Below, in pieces: positions 5,685 through 15,399 of a stretch of 64,000 nucleotides of DNA; positions within the stretch are counted from its first letter, which is position 1; each line of letters opens with the position of its first letter. Under the pieces are notes generated by a model, which saw nothing but the letters and a program-made list of their open reading frames with translations, ran no database searches and was not told the origin of the DNA. A program made the position numbers and the translations under genes. The DNA comes from Arthrobacter saudimassiliensis (lineage in GTDB: Bacteria > Actinomycetota > Actinomycetes > Actinomycetales > Micrococcaceae), in the NCBI GenBank assembly GCA_900016675.1, contig LN483070.1, positions 186,001 through 250,000 on the forward strand, written 5' to 3'.

Positions 5685-8600
5685 ATGAGACTCTCGAAGC
5701 ATCGGGCCGGCGCAGGGGTGGTTGCCACCCTGGCCGGCGTCGCCCTCACCGCAGGCCTCGGCCTGCCGGCGCAGGCGCAGGAAACGGACGGCGGGGAAGC
5801 CCCGGCCCAGGGCATCCAGGTTCAGGATTTCGAGGCCCTGAAGGTCTCGCCCAGCCTGCGGGACCTCAACGGCGAGGTGTCCGCCTACGTGCAGTTCAAG
5901 GGCGACGGCGCGTTCGGGCAGACCCAGCCCGAGGCGGTCAAGGAGGGCCGGGAAAAGCCGGTCAACAAGCGCGAACGGGTCCGCCAGATCCGCTCCACCA
6001 TCGAGGCCCAGGCGCAGTCCGCCGCGGCCGAGGCCTCCGCCGAAGCCCTGTACACCACCACCAACACGCTGCCCGGCGTCGCGGTCCGCGGCGACGCCGA
6101 GGCCATCAAGGCCCTCGCCGGCCGTGACGACGTCGCGAGCATCACCCGCATCGTGCCCAAGACCGTGGACAACAAGGGCGCGGACATCGACACCCGCGCC
6201 CTGGACAGCTGGGTGCAGCGCAGCGAGACCGGCGAGGGCATCACCATTGCGGTGCTGGACACCGGTATCGACTACACGCACTCCTCCTTCGGCGGCCCCG
6301 GCACGGTGGAGGCCTACCAGGCCGCGCAGGCCTCCGAGACGATTCCGGCGGCCGACTCCGGCCTGCTCGATCCGGAGAAGTTCATCGGCGGCTACGACCT
6401 GGTGGGCGATGACTACAACGCCGATCCTTCCTCCCCCACCTACCAGCCGGTGCCGAAGCCGGACCTGAACCCGCTGGACTGCGGCGGGCACGGCTCGCAC
6501 GTGGCCGGCACCGCCGCCGGCTACGGCACCAACGACGACGGCAGCACCTTCCGCGGCGACTACACCAAGCTCACCGCCGAAGAGGTCAACGGGATGCGCA
6601 TCGGCCCCGGCTCGGCGCCCGAGGCCAAGCTGGTCGGGATCCGCGTCTTCGGCTGCGCCGGTTCCTCCGCCGTCGTCGGCCAGGCCCTGGACTACGTCCT
6701 GGATCCCAACGGTGACGGCGACTTCTCCGACCGCGCCCAGGTGGTGAACATGTCCCTCGGCTCGGAGTACGCCCCGTACGACGATCCGGAGAACGCCATC
6801 GTGGACAAGCTCACCGAGCTGGGCATCCTCTCCGTCACCTCGGCCGGCAACTCCGGCGACGTGTACGACGTCGGCGGCTCGCCCGGCAACGCCCGTTCCT
6901 CGCTGGCGGTGGCCAGCAGCATCGGCTCCCAGGTGACCCTGGACCGCGCAGATGTGCTCGCCCCCGCCGAGGTGGAGGGCACGGCGTCGGGCCAGTACAG
7001 CTCCAACTTCAACTACTCCGACCCGGCCGTCACCGAGGAACGCCTCACAGGCAACGTGGTCATGGCGCCGGCGAACAACCGGTTCGGCTGCGAGGCCTTC
7101 CCGGCCGGTTCGCTGGCCGGCAAGTGGGTGTGGATCCAGTGGGAGGAAAACGGACAGTTCCCCTGCGGCTCCGGCGTGCGCTTCAACAACGCGCAGGCGG
7201 CCGGCGCCACCGGCGTCGTCCTGGACTCCCCGCGGTCGGTGTTCGACGCCGGCATCGGCGGCAACGCGGCCATCCCCGGCATCCAGCTGAACCGCGACTC
7301 CTCGGACCGGCTGCGGCCCGCCGCCGTCGCCGGCACCCTGGAGCTGCGCCTGGCGCCGCAGTACATGGCGACCGCCACCGGCCCGTCGGAGTCTCAGGAC
7401 ACCATCAGCTCCTTCTCCTCGCGCGGCCTGCACGGATCCAACGGCGTGGTGAAGCCCGACGTCGCCGCTCCCGGCTCCTCGATCGGCTCCGTGTCGGTCG
7501 GCTCCGGTGACGGCGCCTCGACCAGCTCCGGCACCTCGATGGCCGCGCCGCACGTCGCCGGCCTGGCCGCGCTGATGTACGCGGCCACGGACTACAACCC
7601 GTACGAGGTCAAGACCGCGATCATGAACACCGCCACGCACGATCTGTTCTCGGCCGAGGGCAGCGTACTGGCCCCGAACCGGGTGGGCTCGGGCCGGGTG
7701 GACGCCCTCGATGCGCTGAACAACAAGGTGCTGGCCTACGCGACGGACGATCCGGCGCTGACCAGCGTGAACTTCGGCGTGCTGGAACTGGGCGACGAGG
7801 CGCTGCGGCTGACCCGCAGCATCACCGTGGAGAACAAGTCCGACACCCCGCGCCGCTACACGGTCTCCTACCTGGAGTCCTCCACCATGCCGGGCGTCAG
7901 CGTCAGCACCAGCCCGCGGGTGGATGTGCCGGCCAACGGCAAGGCCACCGTCGAGGTGACCCTGGACATCGCCGACCCGGCCGCCCTGGCCAAGACCATC
8001 GACCCGGGCGCCGAAACCGAGCAGCTGGGCCTGGCCCGGCAGTTCCTGGCCGATGTCTCCGGCCGCGTGCAGCTGGCCGCCGACGGCGTGCCGACCCTGC
8101 GCGTGCCGGTCTACTCCGCACCGAAGCCGACCGCGGCGATGAGCGCCGGCACCGGCGTCCAGTTCGCCGACGCCGAGGCGGGCGCGGCCGACGTCGTGCT
8201 CCGCGGCCGTGACCTGCAGCAGGGCGAGGGATCCTCCCGCTACCTCTCGCTGGTGGCCCCGCTGGTCCTGGGCGCGGAAAGCCCGCGCCTGGAGAAGGTG
8301 AACATGGAGTCGCTGCGCGCCATGGACCTGCAGGCGGTGGGTGCATCCTCCACCCTGCCCGCGCTGCGGGCCGCCGGCGCCGACGAGCGCGATGCCATGC
8401 TCCACTTCGGCGTCAGCACCTGGGACAACTGGCCGATCCTCGGCGGATCCAACGAGATCAACGTGGAGATCGACGTCAACGCCGACGGCGTGGGCGACTA
8501 CCAGGTCTTCACCTCGCGGGCCGCGGACCTGGACGTGGTCCTGGTCTCCACCTACCGGATCAACCCGGACGGCAGCGGCGAGCTGGTGGACCAGTACGGC

Positions 8601-9308
8601 GCCAACGGCGTGCTGGGCGACACGGACACCAACACCTTCGACACCAACGTGGTGACGCTGCCGGTGGCCGTGGAGGCGCTGGGCCTGGATCCGGCCGCCG
8701 AGTCGCTGCCGATCCAGTACCGGGTGACCACGCTCAGCCCGTACAACAGCGACGAGAACGGCGGGAACGTGCCGGTGGACGAGACCGCGTGGATCGGGTT
8801 CGACGCCTCCAGCCCGGCGCTGTGGTTCAGCGGCGCGACGCCGGAGGCCGGGCTGTTCGCCGACGTCGACGGCGGCAAGCTCACCGTCAACCGCGGGACC
8901 GAGGTCACCGACGCCAAGGCGCTGTTCCTGCACCTGCACAACGGCACCGGGGACCTCTCCGGGGCCGCGGGCCTGGGTGGCCGTGCCGAGATCCTGCCGA
9001 TCTCGGTGCCTGCCCCGGTGGTGAACCCGGTGAGCGCCGTCGCGGTCTGCAACGCGTTCAAGTCGGAGATCAAGGTGACGGTGACCAACCCGGGCGACCG
9101 CCGCGCGGACATCACCCTGAACACCCCGTACGGCAACGCCAAGGTGCAGAAGCTGCAGCCGGGCGAGACCCGCACCGAGGTGATCAAGACCCGTAAGCTG
9201 ACCACCGCGGCCGGCAAAGTGACCGCCGACTACAAGTGGACCGGCGGCGGCAAAGCCGAGAAGGCCGAGTTCACGGCTCCCTTCGGGGCGGTGAAGTGCA
9301 GCCGGTAG
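5685..9308 (+). CDS. Secreted subtilisin-like serine protease (S8) with PA insert
   Basis: The 1207-aa preproprotein starts with a Sec signal peptide (cleavage after AQA near residue 31) and a propeptide of inhibitor-I9 type (about 65-165). The S8 catalytic triad is Asp192 in AVLDTGIDY, His269 in GHGSHVAGT and Ser618 in SSGTSMAAPHVAG, with the oxyanion Asn in SAGNSG. About 150 residues between the Asn and Ser blocks look like a protease-associated (PA) insert. The C-terminal half (680-1207) is beta-rich, probably Fn3-like. It ends without a sorting signal, so the enzyme is probably released. ATG 5685 has AAGGAG four bases upstream. Confidence 0.92.
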   Translation: MRLSKHRAGAGVVATLAGVALTAGLGLPAQAQETDGGEAPAQGIQVQDFEALKVSPSLRDLNGEVSAYVQFKGDGAFGQTQPEAVKEGREKPVNKRERVRQIRSTIEAQAQSAAAEASAEALYTTTNTLPGVAVRGDAEAIKALAGRDDVASITRIVPKTVDNKGADIDTRALDSWVQRSETGEGITIAVLDTGIDYTHSSFGGPGTVEAYQAAQASETIPAADSGLLDPEKFIGGYDLVGDDYNADPSSPTYQPVPKPDLNPLDCGGHGSHVAGTAAGYGTNDDGSTFRGDYTKLTAEEVNGMRIGPGSAPEAKLVGIRVFGCAGSSAVVGQALDYVLDPNGDGDFSDRAQVVNMSLGSEYAPYDDPENAIVDKLTELGILSVTSAGNSGDVYDVGGSPGNARSSLAVASSIGSQVTLDRADVLAPAEVEGTASGQYSSNFNYSDPAVTEERLTGNVVMAPANNRFGCEAFPAGSLAGKWVWIQWEENGQFPCGSGVRFNNAQAAGATGVVLDSPRSVFDAGIGGNAAIPGIQLNRDSSDRLRPAAVAGTLELRLAPQYMATATGPSESQDTISSFSSRGLHGSNGVVKPDVAAPGSSIGSVSVGSGDGASTSSGTSMAAPHVAGLAALMYAATDYNPYEVKTAIMNTATHDLFSAEGSVLAPNRVGSGRVDALDALNNKVLAYATDDPALTSVNFGVLELGDEALRLTRSITVENKSDTPRRYTVSYLESSTMPGVSVSTSPRVDVPANGKATVEVTLDIADPAALAKTIDPGAETEQLGLARQFLADVSGRVQLAADGVPTLRVPVYSAPKPTAAMSAGTGVQFADAEAGAADVVLRGRDLQQGEGSSRYLSLVAPLVLGAESPRLEKVNMESLRAMDLQAVGASSTLPALRAAGADERDAMLHFGVSTWDNWPILGGSNEINVEIDVNADGVGDYQVFTSRAADLDVVLVSTYRINPDGSGELVDQYGANGVLGDTDTNTFDTNVVTLPVAVEALGLDPAAESLPIQYRVTTLSPYNSDENGGNVPVDETAWIGFDASSPALWFSGATPEAGLFADVDGGKLTVNRGTEVTDAKALFLHLHNGTGDLSGAAGLGGRAEILPISVPAPVVNPVSAVAVCNAFKSEIKVTVTNPGDRRADITLNTPYGNAKVQKLQPGETRTEVIKTRKLTTAAGKVTADYKWTGGGKAEKAEFTAPFGAVKCSR

Positions 9309-9326
9309 CCTGACGCTGAGCACAGC

Positions 9327-9371
9327 ACAGCGGCGGCCGTCTCCCTTCTGGGAGACGGCCGCTTCGCTGTG
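9327..9371 (+). terminator. Terminator of the protease gene
   Basis: A 12-bp core stem CGGCCGTCTCCC/GGGAGACGGCCG with a TTCT loop is extended by outer CACAGCG/CGCTGTG pairing. It lies about 20 bases after the stop codon. Confidence 0.85.
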
Positions 9372-9409
9372 TCCACTGCCGGCAGCTGCCGCTTCTATTG
9401 CTCCTGTAG

Positions 9410-9429
9410 GGCTAGACCCCGGTCTAGCC
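9410..9429. terminator. Short 9-bp hairpin, possible terminator
   Basis: GGCTAGACC is inverted as GGTCTAGCC with a two-base centre. It lies between two convergent genes near the point where base composition drops, so it may serve the reverse-strand STAND gene or mark the island edge. Confidence 0.4.
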
Positions 9430-9537
9430 GCCGGAAAACCAACCTTACAAGCTGCGCCTACCGCCATGTATCGGGGCCCATTCATATCTCCCAGAAACGG
9501 GCGACGGAATCCTAGAGGGCGAACGGAGGGTGAGGTC

Positions 9538-12180
9538 CTATAGGGAAGGCTCTAGTTCAACCTCAACCGCTCGAGTGCGGTCGTCCTGAGTGGTGAGGCT
9601 GAATGCAACCGGCACCCCCACATTCAACCGGGAATAAAACAGACCAGCGGCTAGACCAGACTTGTGAAAGTAGACCCTCTCACTCAGAATTGGACATGTT
9701 ATAAATCCGTATGACCCCAGTAGTGAATAGATAGTACCGTGCAATCGCTTTGTCTCATCGATAGTCACCCCGTCAGCAACATCTCCCGCCGCTTTGATTA
9801 GGCGAGCCAGAGGATACGAATCCGCGTGAGCACTTGCATGGCGCTTGATGACTTCAAGCAGCGAGGGCCATTTATCGGAGGGCCGCAATTGGACAAGCCG
9901 AGTCGTCAATTTGTCAAAAAAATCCGGTGTAGAATCGACACTCTCCCCATACCCCGCACATTGAAAAAGGTAGCGCATAGCGGAGATAGACGCCTCAGTC
10001 GCTGTATCGCGCAACCTCCGGTCCGACGCCCCTCTATTCAACTCATCGGATGCTAGCTCAAATGCCGCTATTGCGTCGTATGCAGCCTGTATAGGATTCC
10101 TAGCTTCAGTTAGCGCGACTTCAGCCCGCCTACAATAGGCGTCAGATAAAGCGGTGAGTACGATCAGCCTCAGGCGGCCTTCGGCGTCAACTAGAGCCGT
10201 CTCAAGATATTCGATGCCTTCGTCAAATTTTTCTTGCCAGACCAACGAGGCGCCCAGATTATACCCCGTGTCCGGCAACCGTAGCACCCTGTGAGCTTCA
10301 GTCGCATAAGGCACAGCCAACTCAGGCTCCCTCATGGCGCGGGCCATGTGGCCAGCGTAGTAGTATGCAACTACCGCTTTATGCTCCTCCGTTTCAGCCA
10401 AATCGTAGGAGTTTAAATATGACTCCCTCGCAGCCAGCTTATTTCCATTCGCAGAGTGCACAAATGCTTCAACCCTATGAACCTCCCAGAATTCCGGGTT
10501 GAGAGTCTTAGCCTCGTCGATTAGGGTGAACGCGACTTCGTAATCCTTAGACCTAGAAGCGCTCAAAGCTCGTCGCAGCAATTGTGCGCTCGGAGCATCT
10601 GTCTCATAGCGCACGCGAACAACATTCGGCCCTAGCGAACGGCGTCCAGCTTCAACCGATCTGCGCTCTTCTTCGCGCAGAAACACAGTCTCATTTTCCT
10701 GAACCTTCGTCCTAACCGGATGGTCCCGAGGGACAACAGTTGCTGTGAACTGACGTGCCGTCTCTGTGAGCGCGATCATGGTTGCCATGGCGGTGTCGCC
10801 GGTCAGCCAGGACCGAACGAGAGAGCCTCTGATAAGTTCCCGAACCGCGGACCCAACCTCCGAGACCGCTTTTCCAAGTAAAACTACAAGGTCGTCCTGC
10901 GTGACGGGACGACGTAGTGCATCCATAGCAATAAACATCTCAGTAGCAGCGGGGCTTAGGTTTTCATAAACCGACCTAACACAGTAGTTCAAGAGCTCAT
11001 CCTGATGCCTGATAGAGTTCAGGGGGTCGTGCCCAGCTTCAGTTGCGAGAATAAACCAACGAATAGCCAATGGAGAGCACCTGAGCTTGGAGACTATCAC
11101 CTTACGGGAATCTCCAGAAACACGCCTCAGGGATGGCACATTTCTGTATCTAACCAGTTGGTTTAGAAGATACAGCGCATCCGACTCCCCAAGGGGCTTG
11201 ACGTCGATACGGCGCTCAACTTGCCCTATCCCCTCCCGGCTGGTTATTAGAAATGACGCATCATCAGGAAGTCCTTCGTAGAGCTCAAGAAAGTCTTCCC
11301 CGTTTATTGTTTCGAGGTTGTCTATAATAATTAGGGGTTTAAATCCATCGATGACTGTGGCTAGCTGCTGAACTCCCCCGGAGAAGTCCGACCGCGCCCC
11401 CTCGCCTAGAGCCTGCGCGACACCAACAAGATCCGAAGCGTTGTTCTTAATTTCCAGTACGCCAGTTCCGGTCAGCCGTTCGCTCTTCAGTGATGCCCAG
11501 AGAATGAGATCGAAGGGCTCCTCCGGATCGTCGAGAAGTTGATAGGCCACTTCCACCGCGAGAGCTGTTTTCCCGATGCCACCTTCGCCACACAGTGTTA
11601 TAACCGGATCCCGCCGACGTTTGAGAGCGGCACAGATGCGTTTGACTTCATCGTCCCGGCCTACAAGTCCAGTTTCGTCATAGTCTGAATGAGGCAGATT
11701 GTGTCGAATCTTATCCTCAAGCGCTTCGAATGCGTTCTCAGGGTGCCATCCGTGGTCCGCCTCAATATTGTCTAAGACCTTTGCAGTACTGCGCCAGTAC
11801 TGTCGATCAAACTTCACTAGTGATGACCGCATTCGATCGAAGTCACCCGGTGCCAGTGGCCTACTGTGCATGACCCTATGCCTGATTGGCAGGATTACAT
11901 CCAGTTCCGCGGTAAGTTCACGAGTCTCCAAAGCCAAAATGGCTGGAAGATGTCGGCGATGTCTATTCAAAAGGTCGTATGCGACCCTAAGATCAAGGTA
12001 CTCCACGAGTTCATTCTCGCTGCCCATAGGGTCGTCATCGCGCCGCTTTTTCAAGTCGACAAGGGAGTTCCCGAATACCTTTGCTTCGTCCTCCTCCACG
12101 GGAATGATGAACCGATAAAGATGCGATCTAACGTCCCGCTCGAAAGCGTCTACGAGTGCATACATTTGTTGAGAAGCCAA
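9538..12180 (-). CDS. HEPN - NB-ARC (STAND) ATPase - TPR - cold-shock-like protein
   Basis: The 880-aa protein reads as a multidomain immune-type NTPase. Residues 6-130 are helical and carry R100-x4-H105 (RHRVMH), the HEPN ribonuclease signature, most like Swt1-type HEPN. Residues 170-480 are an NB-ARC-like module: Walker A GEGGIGKT (198-205), Walker B LIIIDNLE (283-290), sensor LITSR (311-315), then a winged-helix-like segment. Residues 540-740 look like TPR repeats. Residues 815-880 resemble a cold-shock/S1-like OB fold (YGFI...VYFH). The start is TTG with GGGGGA just upstream; an ATG five codons in is the alternative. Base composition is far lower in GC than the neighbours, and no partner gene is adjacent. 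The predicted role, nucleotide-gated RNA cleavage in defence, is inference. Confidence 0.85.
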   Translation of the reverse strand: MASQQMYALVDAFERDVRSHLYRFIIPVEEDEAKVFGNSLVDLKKRRDDDPMGSENELVEYLDLRVAYDLLNRHRRHLPAILALETRELTAELDVILPIRHRVMHSRPLAPGDFDRMRSSLVKFDRQYWRSTAKVLDNIEADHGWHPENAFEALEDKIRHNLPHSDYDETGLVGRDDEVKRICAALKRRRDPVITLCGEGGIGKTALAVEVAYQLLDDPEEPFDLILWASLKSERLTGTGVLEIKNNASDLVGVAQALGEGARSDFSGGVQQLATVIDGFKPLIIIDNLETINGEDFLELYEGLPDDASFLITSREGIGQVERRIDVKPLGESDALYLLNQLVRYRNVPSLRRVSGDSRKVIVSKLRCSPLAIRWFILATEAGHDPLNSIRHQDELLNYCVRSVYENLSPAATEMFIAMDALRRPVTQDDLVVLLGKAVSEVGSAVRELIRGSLVRSWLTGDTAMATMIALTETARQFTATVVPRDHPVRTKVQENETVFLREEERRSVEAGRRSLGPNVVRVRYETDAPSAQLLRRALSASRSKDYEVAFTLIDEAKTLNPEFWEVHRVEAFVHSANGNKLAARESYLNSYDLAETEEHKAVVAYYYAGHMARAMREPELAVPYATEAHRVLRLPDTGYNLGASLVWQEKFDEGIEYLETALVDAEGRLRLIVLTALSDAYCRRAEVALTEARNPIQAAYDAIAAFELASDELNRGASDRRLRDTATEASISAMRYLFQCAGYGESVDSTPDFFDKLTTRLVQLRPSDKWPSLLEVIKRHASAHADSYPLARLIKAAGDVADGVTIDETKRLHGTIYSLLGSYGFITCPILSERVYFHKSGLAAGLFYSRLNVGVPVAFSLTTQDDRTRAVEVELEPSL

Positions 12181-12481
12181 TTTTCCCCCATGTCCTTAAT
12201 GGAGCGCCGCCAATGGCGCTCTTCGGCTACAGCACGCTTGCCGCTCACCAGAGTAGCTGCGCAATCGAACGAACTTTTATCTTCCTGGACTCACCTCATC
12301 CCGTGGATCGACCTGGGTCCCGAACCTTGGCGCCTTTTCCGCGCTCTGTGCCGCCGGGGAAGATCACCGCAGCCTTAATAGCACCTCTCGAGGCAGTAGC
12401 GTTGTCCTTTCCAGCGGCCTTCGCTGCCAAGGGTTATCTTTCAGCCTTGATCTCCCTACCGACAGTGTGTCTATTACCGAC
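12181..12481. other. Noncoding gap upstream of the STAND gene
   Basis: This 301-base gap separates the STAND gene from the stop codon of ramB. Composition changes from mid-GC to high-GC across it. It should hold the promoter of the STAND gene, but I see no convincing -35/-10 pair, attachment site or small gene. Confidence 0.5.
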
Positions 12482-13909
12482 CTACCGCTCCGAATGGGCC
12501 TGCAGGAAGGAATAGACCTCGGTCTCGTCGACGCCGGGGAATGCGCCGGGCGGCAGCGCCGCCAGCAGGTGCGAGTGGGCGCGGGCGCTGGGCCAGGCGT
12601 TGCCGGACCACTCGGCGGCGAGCTGCTGCGGGGGCACCCGGCAGCAGCTGGGATCCGGGCAGGTCGACTTGGACCGCTCCTGGGTCTCCCGGCCGCGGAA
12701 CCACTTCACGTGCGCGTACGGGACGCCGATGCTCAACGAGAACAGCCCGGCGGAGCTGCGCTCGGTGCGGGCGGTGCACCAGTACGTGCCGGCCGGCGTG
12801 TCCGTGTACTGGTTGAAGGCGCTGAACTGGTCCGGCACGTTGAACACCTCCCGCGACGTCCAGTACCGGCAGATCGGCTGGCCCTCGATGGCGCCGGTAT
12901 GGTCCGCCGGGAAGGTCACGCCGTCGTTCTCATACGCCTTGTAGACGATGCCGCTCTTGTGCACCTTCTGGAAGTGCGTGGGAATGCCCAGGTGCTCGGT
13001 GGCGAGGTTGGTGAACCGGTGCGCGGCGGTCTCGTAGGAGACGGCGAACGCGTCGCGGATGTCCTCGACGGCGATTTCCTTGGCCGCTTTGGCCCGCTGC
13101 AGGAACTCGACGGTGGCCTTTTCCGGCAGCAGCAGCGCGGCGGCGAAATAGTTGGTGGCCACCCGCTGGCTGAGGAACTCCCCGTAGCTCTGCGGCGTCT
13201 CGTGCTGCAGCACGTAGTGGCCCAGGGCCTGCAGCAGCACCGAGCGCGGATCATGGTCCGACTGCTGGGACTGGGTCAGGTAGATCCGTTTGTTCTTGAG
13301 GTCGGTGACCGAGCGGGTGGAGTGCGGCAGGTCGTTCACGTGGTGCAGCGAGAAGCCCAGGTGCGCGGCGATGTCGGCGATGACGTGCTGGGACAGCGGC
13401 CCGGCGGTGTGCCCCACCGAGTCCAGCACCTCCTGTGCCGCCCGCTCGTACTCCGGAAAGTAGTTGTTCCGCTCGCGCATCATCATGCGCAGCTCGGTGT
13501 TGGCCCGGCGGGCCTCCTCCGGGGTGGCGATCTGCTCGTTCAGCCGGCGCTCCAGCTCGGCCTGCAGTCCGACCAGGGACTCCAGCACGTCCATCGGCAG
13601 CCGTGAGCTGATCCGGACCTTGGGCAGGCCCAGGGACTCGTAGAGCGGGCCGCGCTGGGCGCGCTCCAGCTCGATCTCCAGGGCGGCGCGCCGGCTGGGC
13701 GGCTCGGCTTCCCCCAGCAGCGCGTCGATCGTCACGCCCAGCGCCTTGGCCAGGGACTGCAGCATGCCCAGCTTCGGCTCGCGCTTGCCGTTTTCGATCA
13801 GCGACAGCTGCGAGGGGACGGTGCCGACGGCGGCGCCCAGCTCCTCGAGGGTCAGGCCCTTGGACTTGCGCAGGTGCCGCAGTCGGCGCCCCAGGGCGAT
13901 GCCGTCCAT
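12482..13909 (-). CDS. ramB: RamB-type regulator of acetate metabolism
   Basis: The 475-aa product has an N-terminal XRE helix-turn-helix (ALGRRLRHLR through SQLSLIENGKREPKL), an IrrE/ImmA-like middle part, and a C-terminal short-chain fatty-acyl regulator domain with a late cysteine cluster (CPDPSCC). This matches RamB, the glyoxylate-shunt repressor of corynebacteria and relatives, in architecture and length (about 475 aa). It is divergent from aceA. I chose ATG 13909 because similarity starts there and the length fits; a GTG at 13966 is also in frame. Confidence 0.9.
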   Translation of the reverse strand: MDGIALGRRLRHLRKSKGLTLEELGAAVGTVPSQLSLIENGKREPKLGMLQSLAKALGVTIDALLGEAEPPSRRAALEIELERAQRGPLYESLGLPKVRISSRLPMDVLESLVGLQAELERRLNEQIATPEEARRANTELRMMMRERNNYFPEYERAAQEVLDSVGHTAGPLSQHVIADIAAHLGFSLHHVNDLPHSTRSVTDLKNKRIYLTQSQQSDHDPRSVLLQALGHYVLQHETPQSYGEFLSQRVATNYFAAALLLPEKATVEFLQRAKAAKEIAVEDIRDAFAVSYETAAHRFTNLATEHLGIPTHFQKVHKSGIVYKAYENDGVTFPADHTGAIEGQPICRYWTSREVFNVPDQFSAFNQYTDTPAGTYWCTARTERSSAGLFSLSIGVPYAHVKWFRGRETQERSKSTCPDPSCCRVPPQQLAAEWSGNAWPSARAHSHLLAALPPGAFPGVDETEVYSFLQAHSER

Positions 13910-13997
13910 CCGCTCGTCGGGCCCGGGGGCCTCCGGGGCGGGTCGGTTCCATGTTGAACTGATCACATTTTCACGGTACGCGAAGAACTGCATTTTT

Positions 13998-14018
13998 TTC
14001 CAGAGAAAACCTCTGGAA
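13998..14018. promoter_or_regulatory. Palindrome in the ramB-aceA promoter region
   Basis: TTCCAGAG is inverted as CTCTGGAA around AAAAC, amid A/T tracts in otherwise GC-rich DNA between the divergent genes. Its position suggests an operator, possibly for RamB itself. The sequence is not an obvious copy of the published corynebacterial RamB box. Confidence 0.45.
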
Positions 14019-14062
14019 GAGGGGTTGTTTTTGGCGAAAAGTGGTTCCCACAGCAAGGGAAA

Positions 14063-14081
14063 CCCGGCCGGAAGGGCCGGG
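14063..14081 (+). promoter_or_regulatory. Hairpin in the aceA leader
   Basis: CCCGGCC (14063-14069) pairs with GGCCGGG (14075-14081) around GGAAG, ending ten bases before the aceA ribosome site. It could stabilise or attenuate the messenger. Confidence 0.4.
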
Positions 14082-14106
14082 ACAAAGATCCAAGGAGATG
14101 TTGGAA

Positions 14107-15399
14107 ATGACGCAGGAGACGAGCACCGCCGCCGAGCAGCTGGCCCAGGAATGGGCCACCGACCCGCGCTGGGAAGGCATCGAGCGTGACTACACCGCCG
14201 AGGACGTCGTCAAGCTGCGCGGCCGCATCCAGGAGGAGCACACCCTGGCCCGCCGCGGCGCGGAGAAGCTCTGGGACCAGCTGCGGAACGCCGGCGATGA
14301 AGGCTACACCAACGCCCTCGGCGCGCTGACCGGCAACCAGGCCGTCCAGCAGGTCAAGGCCGGGCTGAAGGCCATCTACCTCTCCGGCTGGCAGGTCGCC
14401 GCGGATGCGAACAACTCCGGCCACACCTACCCGGACCAGTCCCTGTACCCGGCTAACTCGGTGCCCACCGTCGTCCGCCGGATCAACAACGCGCTGCTGC
14501 GTGCCGACCAGATCGAGTTCGCCGAAGGCATCCAGTCCGTCGACGACTACCTGGTGCCGATCGTGGCCGACGCCGAGGCCGGTTTCGGCGGCCCGCTGAA
14601 TGCCTACGAGCTGATGAAGGCCATGATCCAGGCCGGTGCCTCCGGCGTGCACTGGGAGGACCAGCTCGCCTCGGAGAAGAAGTGCGGCCACCTCGGCGGC
14701 AAGGTGCTGATCCCCACCGGCCAGCACATCCGCACCCTGAACGCCGCCCGCCTCGCGGCCGACGTCGCCGGCACGCCCACCGTGGTGATCGCCCGCACCG
14801 ACGCCGAGGCGGCCACCCTGATCACCTCCGACGTCGACGAGCGCGACGCCGAGTTCATCACCGGCGAGCGGACCGCGGAAGGCTTCTACAAGGTCCGCAA
14901 CGGCATCGAGCCCTGCATCGCCCGGGCCAAGGCCTACGCGCCGTACTCGGACCTGATCTGGATGGAGACCGGTACCCCGGACCTGGAGATGGCCCGCAAG
15001 TTCGCCGAAGCCGTCCGCTCCGAGTTCCCGGACCAGATGCTTGCTTACAACTGCTCGCCGTCCTTCAACTGGAAGAAGCACCTGGACGACGACACCATCG
15101 CCAAGTTCCAGCGCGAGCTCGGCGCCATGGGCTTCAAGTTCCAGTTCATCACCCTGGCCGGCTTCCACGCCCTGAACTACTCGATGTTCGACCTGGCGCA
15201 CGGCTACGCCCGCACCGGCATGAGCGCCTACGTGGAGCTGCAGGAAAAGGAATTCGGCGCGGAGGGCCGCGGCTACACCGCCACCCGCCACCAGCGCGAA
15301 GTCGGCACCGGCTACTTCGACGCCATCTCCACTGCCCTGAACCCCGAGGGCAGCACCCTGGCGCTGGCCGGGTCCACCGAGACCGCCCAGTTCCACTAA
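14107..15399 (+). CDS. aceA: Isocitrate lyase
   Basis: This enzyme splits isocitrate into glyoxylate and succinate, the first step of the glyoxylate shunt. The 430-aa protein carries the active-site loop KKCGH (Cys193), the family [14 protein letters not shown] segment, ARTDAEAA and [11 protein letters not shown]. Two ATGs are available. AAGGAG (14092-14097) abuts the first (14098) but sits nine bases from the second (14107), so the second is chosen. Malate synthase follows 80 bases downstream. Confidence 0.96.

Follow-up and report, generated by a model that had tools for sequence, protein, structure and literature searches.

Gene and Locus

The window, a 64,000-nucleotide stretch of an Arthrobacter saudimassiliensis contig, contains an intact open reading frame of 880 amino acids between a subtilase gene and a gene for a RamB-type regulator. 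These genes, and the features assigned within the frame, are as follows.

5685-9308, plus strand: subtilase gene, one flank of the frame
9538..12180, minus strand: intact ORF, 880 aa, TTG start, zero internal stops; Swt1-type HEPN - NB-ARC - TPR - CSD
11746..12180, minus strand: HEPN domain, Swt1/Abi2 type, residues 1-145, predicted RNase effector (profile-profile match; HEPN_Swt1/Abi_2 matches in relatives)
11866..11883, minus strand: R-x4-H motif R100-H105 (RHRVMH), predicted active site (conservation of R and H)
11044..11667, minus strand: NB-ARC/STAND ATPase, residues 172-379 (Pfam NB-ARC, E = 3.6e-6, above cut-off)
11566..11589, minus strand: Walker A, GEGGIGKT, residues 198-205 (K204 in 90/90 sequences)
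11311..11334, minus strand: Walker B, LIIIDNLE, residues 283-290 (D287, N288 and E290 in 90/90)
9766..10560, minus strand: TPR region, residues about 541-805 (Pfam TPR_2, E = 1.2e-5, below cut-off)
9541..9747, minus strand: cold-shock (OB) domain, CSD, residues 812-880 (Pfam CSD; GSYGFI and VYFHK motifs)
12482-14056, minus strand: RamB-type regulator gene with HTH and M78 domains, the other flank

Beyond the RamB-type gene lie what we take, from their translations, to be isocitrate lyase-, malate synthase- and MFS-like genes. None of the identified genes that flank this copy (subtilase, RamB-like regulator, metabolic and transport genes) is recognized as a defense gene.

The first-pass annotation described the frame as a mid-GC gene among high-GC genes, and its composition bears this out (52.8% GC versus 68-72% for five neighboring genes). 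The difference in GC3 is wider still (53.4% versus 93-95% in the same number of neighbors). The gene appears to have been acquired recently. No obvious pair of direct repeats brackets it among the short repeats detected, and Rfam has no matches within 8000-14500. The protein by itself matches one PADLOC model (TRIP13, E = 0.012), and a scan of NCBIfam returns P-loop and TPR matches alone, far under their cut-offs.

Domain Architecture

Profile matches and residue conservation both back the single-protein HEPN/NB-ARC/TPR/CSD layout that was first proposed for this frame. For the HEPN domain, single sequences stay under the Pfam cut-off. At E <= 1 the window protein has no match to any Pfam HEPN model, and its close homologue L042 has a weak HEPN_Swt1 match over residues 19-120 (E = 0.0099) that is likewise under the cut-off. 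Across the family, 14 of 55 members match HEPN_Swt1 at E <= 0.01. When ten N-termini were scanned at E <= 1, HEPN_Swt1 was found below 0.01 in six and at 0.19 in one, and Abi_2 below 0.01 in two, one of which is also among the six; the N-termini of L064 and L068 match neither model at this threshold.

The signal is much clearer between profiles. An hhalign comparison of 38 family N-termini with 16 HEPN_Swt1 domains, drawn using PF18731 from genomes of the same order, gives E = 9.1e-7 with the R-x4-H motifs of the two profiles aligned, and 87 family N-termini give E = 4.5e-8 against HEPN_Swt1. All controls (eight other segments of the family alignment, eight column shuffles and a reversed profile) have probabilities of at most 0.5%. 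No PDB sequence matches the family N-terminal profile at E <= 1.

The R100-H105 motif of the earlier note is present and fits the R-x4-6-H pattern of the HEPN superfamily, and its arginine and histidine are kept in all 89 aligned sequences that have the region, the window protein included (the conservation alignment holds 90, and L085 has no N-terminus). Because the HEPN motif itself was one of the two patterns in the genome-contig search, rows outside that pattern were counted apart: 34 of the 90 fail to match it, 33 of these possess the N-terminal region, and both residues are kept in 33/33. Profile comparison and motif conservation together support a predicted Swt1/Abi2-type HEPN domain at the N-terminus. 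The genome of the window also encodes another HEPN_Swt1 protein, within a frame of 1142 aa (L156, G000 C3:420851-421195; E = 6.3e-26).

The NB-ARC-like ATPase is seen directly in the window protein, where AAA_16 also matches just over its cut-off, and NB-ARC is matched in 55/55 family members. Its Walker A and B residues are invariant. The TPR-like region falls below the Pfam cut-off in the window protein and is matched at E <= 0.01 in 41 of 55 members.

The cold-shock-like C-terminus is a common feature of the family. Pfam CSD covers residues 816-875 of the window protein (E = 4e-5, below cut-off), and 36 of 55 members have CSD tails at E <= 0.01. A leave-clade-out CSD profile matches 77 of 87 family sequences at E < 1e-3, with two weak matches and eight without any; in three of the 77 the match lies away from the very end. 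These Pfam and leave-clade-out matches across the family rule out a single-sequence artifact. The eight CSD-less rows were first chosen by eye and then excluded from the sets on which the CSD profiles were trained. Inspection by eye of three forward frames over 700 bases downstream of these eight loci (L003, L036, L056, L057, L059, L067, L074 and L076) found no CSD split into an adjoining ORF. Loose regular expressions, applied without a chance control, find an RNP1-like pattern in 77/79 tails and an RNP2-like pattern in 55/79, and the motifs of the domain suggest that it may bind nucleic acid. Three longer members of 921-948 aa (L075, L097 and L105) have their CSD match well before the C-terminus, perhaps within tandem OB domains.

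The tree places the CSD-less rows at three separate points (L003/L056/L057/L059, L036/L067/L074 and L076), so at least three losses or gains of the domain have probably occurred. Since 8 of 87 sequences do without it, the CSD is not essential everywhere, and its absence in three places suggests that in some lineages it may modulate the switch rather than drive it.

The regions differ in how fast they change. Among 69 pairs at 55-75% identity, conservation is 75% in the NTPase, 58% in both the HEPN and early TPR regions, 42% in the late TPR and 45% in the CSD. The NTPase is thus the slowest part, and the late TPR and CSD are the fastest, which points to these last two as the sensing end.

Relation to Known Systems

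Anantharaman et al. 2013 (PMC3710099) describe in silico fusions of a Swt1-like HEPN with a STAND ATPase, TPRs and an S1/cold-shock end, with Npun_F6454, MED222_16016, Desac_1927 and gi 229028907 of Bacillus cereus among the examples. By that description, which calls them 'mostly active', the fusions match the window protein in domain order and HEPN clade, and they probably belong to the same family; the C-terminus is labeled S1 in the table and a cold-shock-like OB fold in the text. The architecture and clade are therefore already on record. The first-pass annotation had considered a cold-shock end on a STAND RNase unusual; this holds in part, as the combination was on record by 2013 and many phyla have it.

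The passages of that paper on these fusions include no experimental or mobility study, and passages of PMC13092281, PMC12931631, PMC8195603 and PMC7159879 report no test of the architecture. Experimental study of it was likewise absent from the literature searched, which was mostly open access. The window gene thus belongs to a known architecture that apparently still awaits experiment, and its function is a prediction.

Four known groups have comparable designs. The TIR-STAND-TPR proteins of P4 satellites, which are reported to be anti-phage, are similarly single proteins with an N-terminal effector, a central STAND NTPase and C-terminal TPRs, and they too are mobile cargo (PMC9122126). Their effector is TIR, SIR2 or a nuclease (Mrr_cat, BpuSI_N) rather than HEPN, and the passages on them there do not mention a CSD. 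Avs/AVAST systems follow the same effector-STAND-TPR logic, and the repeat domain of Avs5, for example, is proposed to sense a phage protein (PMC12931631). Their effector also differs from the HEPN domain of the window protein, and no Avs model of PADLOC hits the window protein at E 1 or is among the eight families that match the 55 members (E <= 0.001). The PADLOC 2023 models that do match these members include the candidate PDC-M34B (16 members), CSD_V (19) and a TPR/cold-shock-like fusion model (1), so parts of the family may already stand in candidate lists.

HEPN RNases and CSD-like OB folds also come together in CoCoNuT type IV restriction systems, which are predicted to target RNA, but these are multi-gene systems built on a McrB GTPase and coiled coils (PMC11090510). 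The window protein has no McrB-type match in Pfam, and no partner gene recurs in more than four loci.

SAMD9/SAMD9L and their bacterial kin share several parts with the window protein: an RNase effector, a STAND P-loop, TPRs and a C-terminal cold-shock-like OB fold (PMC5445408, PMC13245274). SAMD9 is laid out as AlbA_2-SIR2-STAND-TPR-OB(cold-shock) (PMC5445408), and PMC13245274 describes it as a tRNA nuclease. A TPR array followed by a cold-shock-like OB fold is a trait of the SAMD9 family, and the window family has this arrangement. Two differences separate them. SAMD9 and SAMD9L carry AlbA_2 and SIR2-like domains where the window protein has HEPN (PMC5445408, PMC13245274), and neither domain is matched on the window protein by Pfam at E <= 1. 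In addition, the Walker A lysine of SAMD9 is replaced by glycine (PMC5445408, PMC13245274), whereas the corresponding K204 never varies in the family. SAMD9 is thus an architectural analogue of the window protein. A distant relative of the family (L005:1228-3558, minus strand) has a Schlafen AlbA_2 domain in place of HEPN on an NB-ARC-TPR body and no CSD match; its domain matches suggest an effector swap toward a SAMD9-like layout.

Distribution and Mobility

Relatives were found in the same order, on plasmids, in viral contigs and in genome contigs (for the last, the best 80 of 119). The family is compact, is present in many phyla, and is widespread yet rare. The order-level search finds matches below 1e-60 in 3 of 396 genomes, including the genome of the window itself. 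A phylum-level search with the N-terminal profile finds only that genome among 396, so the usefulness of the gene is not obvious from its spread. In a FastTree phylogeny of 86 rows, members of one phylum mostly group together (11 changes for 11 groups, where the minimum possible is 10), and this suggests that transfer between phyla has been rare or old in this sample. The tree is a quick one that gave warnings on long branches and letter make-up. The incomplete sequences L085, L058 and L108 were left out of both the tree and the CSD-tail profile, and L034 was also left out of the tree.

Within the genus, one genome of 29 has the gene at E <= 1e-20, namely that of the window, and all 29 have the ramB-aceA flank. 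The other 28 thus lack it despite this flank, few neighbors are in common elsewhere, and a fixed metabolic context is ruled out. The first-pass annotation had named consistently vertical inheritance in such a context as evidence against a defense role. The gene instead has a patchy distribution, mostly unshared neighbors, and copies on plasmids and viral contigs.

In 15 siblings (L134-L148), the sequence next to ramB in the direction of the subtilase has 64-68% GC and does not resemble that of the window; the interval was placed manually in L134, L135 and L146, which gave no match to a subtilase. The slot between subtilase and ramB varies across the genus by strain. Its ORFs presumably include a Fpg/Nei-like glycosylase (listed in 9 of 15 siblings), a methionine aminopeptidase-like protein and others. 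The best match in the window genome to one of these sibling glycosylases (66%) sits elsewhere, at C1:1183713.

Comparison of neighborhoods suggests that the gene moves by itself. Neighbor sets come from a simple longest-ORF caller that may choose wrong frames, and ORFs of at least 900 aa were excluded. Among 12 locus pairs with gene identity of at least 0.78, ten have no flanking ORF in common within 8 kb, the exceptions being L081/L086 and L068/L100. The homologues L042, L043 and L044, which are 59-61% identical to the window protein, have 0, 0 and 1 flanking ORFs in common with it, and no neighboring family recurs in more than four loci. At the DNA level, the Maribacter (L065) and Mangrovimonas (L069) copies, whose proteins are 95% identical, align as one block that runs from 32 bp before the gene to 21 bp past its last sense base. 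Of the 14 locus pairs compared in this way, others look similar. Short extra blocks occur in L048/L049, L048/L052 and L045/L047; similarity ends about 400 bp before the end of the ORF in two L061 pairs and L115/L033; L042/L043 align inside the gene alone; and L081/L086 have several kb in common. In 76 of 78 loci the gene also has a lower GC content than its flanks (a median difference of -11 points), compared with 93 of 278 control flank ORFs of at least 400 aa. It is apparently a solitary, single-gene mobile unit.

Copies are under purifying selection. In five pairs dN/dS is 0.024-0.044, values that are rough because dS is high (0.8-2.8), and a sixth pair is saturated.

Several copies lie on recognizable mobile DNA. 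The viral contigs contribute six loci, three of them with the HEPN region. Three IMG/VR contigs carry the family gene (L036, L037 and L038), and the context of L036 is weak. At L037:9656-12361 the gene directly follows an endolysin gene near the contig end, and at L038:9989-12556 terminase and portal genes precede it, and a tail-fiber-like gene follows about 6 kb further on. These last two copies are cargo in phage late regions. Three queries against annotated phage records gave zero matches. On plasmids, a single gene separates the Rhizobium sp. BG4 copy from a type I R-M system, two further copies have a RelE/HTH pair within a few kb, and the Rhizobium etli copy lies among ABC-transporter and sugar genes. 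An Acinetobacter baumannii plasmid of 8 kb carries a distant relative (L035:3551-6220, plus strand) near a RelE/HTH pair, and this protein keeps the R-x4-H motif and a CSD-like tail.

Defense Context

A survey of homologue neighborhoods for defense islands had been proposed, and enrichment was sought in two ways without being established. In the first, PADLOC matches at E <= 1e-8 among the 278 nearest genes include, among the matches listed, BrxL, PglZ, a type III REase, AriA, Avs1a, LmuA, DpdF, a DRT protein and methylases. Those listed for 140 genes at least 6.5 kb away, a control set taken from 291, include MADS, SngC, a kinase-like protein and BrxH. The listings hold 25 families each, of 85, 333 and 62. 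Among the matches listed the near genes look more typical of defense than the far ones, which does not amount to enrichment.

The second measure was nearness to R-M genes, which was judged by eye in 49 of 50 loci (L099 is absent) and in which contig breaks can conceal such genes. Of the 49 genomes, a single one (G445, Bradyrhizobium) has a type I HsdR domain no more than 20 kb from the gene, where 0.40 would be expected, which is not significant, and the same Bradyrhizobium genome is the only one with a type I methylase family within that distance.

Predicted Function

We favor, as the probable reading, a self-contained one-gene STAND immune switch that travels as a mobile unit, with an HEPN RNase as its effector and the TPR and CSD regions as its sensor. 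At rest, the NB-ARC domain would hold ADP while the C-terminal TPR and CSD regions keep the protein closed. The fast-evolving late TPR and CSD would read a foreign signal, which might be a phage protein or an RNA or ssDNA bound by the CSD. ATP-driven oligomerization would then gather the HEPN domains so that R-x4-H sites form, and cleavage of RNA (perhaps tRNA or mRNA) would stop translation and with it the infection. We infer the RNase activity, trigger, oligomerization and anti-phage outcome from the domain anatomy, with which such a mechanism is consistent.

The HEPN profile match, the invariance of the R/H and Walker residues, the absence of a conserved neighbor, the patchy, mobile distribution, the low GC relative to the flanks, the copies on plasmids and viral contigs, the low dN/dS values and the rapid change of the late TPR and CSD all favor this immune switch. 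By analogy, so may the anti-phage TIR-STAND-TPR proteins, which have other N-terminal effectors (PMC9122126). Several observations count against it. An arms-race sensor would not be expected to show purifying selection as strong as that seen here, and the flanks of the window copy are a subtilase and a RamB-like/glyoxylate cluster, away from recognized defense genes. Enrichment of defense genes among the neighbors was not shown, type I R-M genes are not significantly close, the CSD is missing from 8 of 87 sequences, and the gene is rare.

A more specific and rather doubtful version of this switch would make the family a prokaryotic counterpart of SAMD9. One mobile gene would sense invader RNA or ssDNA through its CSD, and a STAND oligomer would fire an HEPN tRNase or mRNase. 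The chassis would accept varied RNase effectors (HEPN, or AlbA_2 in L005) and would have gained or lost the CSD by lineage. An RNase effector, an NLR-type switch and an RNA-binding end in one gene would parallel human SAMD9. The family offers a clean test of whether nucleic acid triggers bacterial STAND immunity via a cold-shock domain, for which the natural CSD-less clades are ready-made controls.

It is unlikely that the HEPN RNase instead serves the element that carries it, as a toxin for plasmid maintenance, prophage exclusion of competitors or post-segregational killing, with the STAND module as internal restraint. HEPN domains are common toxins (PMC3710099), the gene apparently moves alone, and it has copies on plasmids and viral contigs, all of which would suit such a role. 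However, no antitoxin or other neighbor recurs in more than four loci, and an NTPase switch with a fast C-terminus suggests sensing.

It is decidedly improbable that the protein is a regulator of stress or metabolism, acting on translation or mRNA decay by way of its HEPN and CSD regions and playing no part against invaders. Such a regulator would act together with ramB/aceA in the window. The position of this copy between the subtilase and RamB-like/glyoxylate-type genes and the strong purifying selection would fit it. AfsR and MalT types are comparable NB-ARC-TPR STAND regulators, and cold-shock domains are classical RNA-binding folds of the stress response. Against this, 28 of the 29 congeners yielded no copy of the gene, and every one of them has the ramB-aceA flank; in addition, the three 59-61% identical homologues share almost none of its flanking ORFs.

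It is very improbable that the HEPN region is a non-catalytic RNA-binding module of a sensor that recruits another effector, since the active-site motif, which is missing from some HEPN families (PMC3710099), is invariant here in 89/89 and a recurrent partner gene is absent.

Two further NB-ARC proteins, at L040:1100-3724 and L041:5807-8416 (both plus strand), have a different N-terminus with an RNKTRAH or RNKTRGH motif that may represent another HEPN family.
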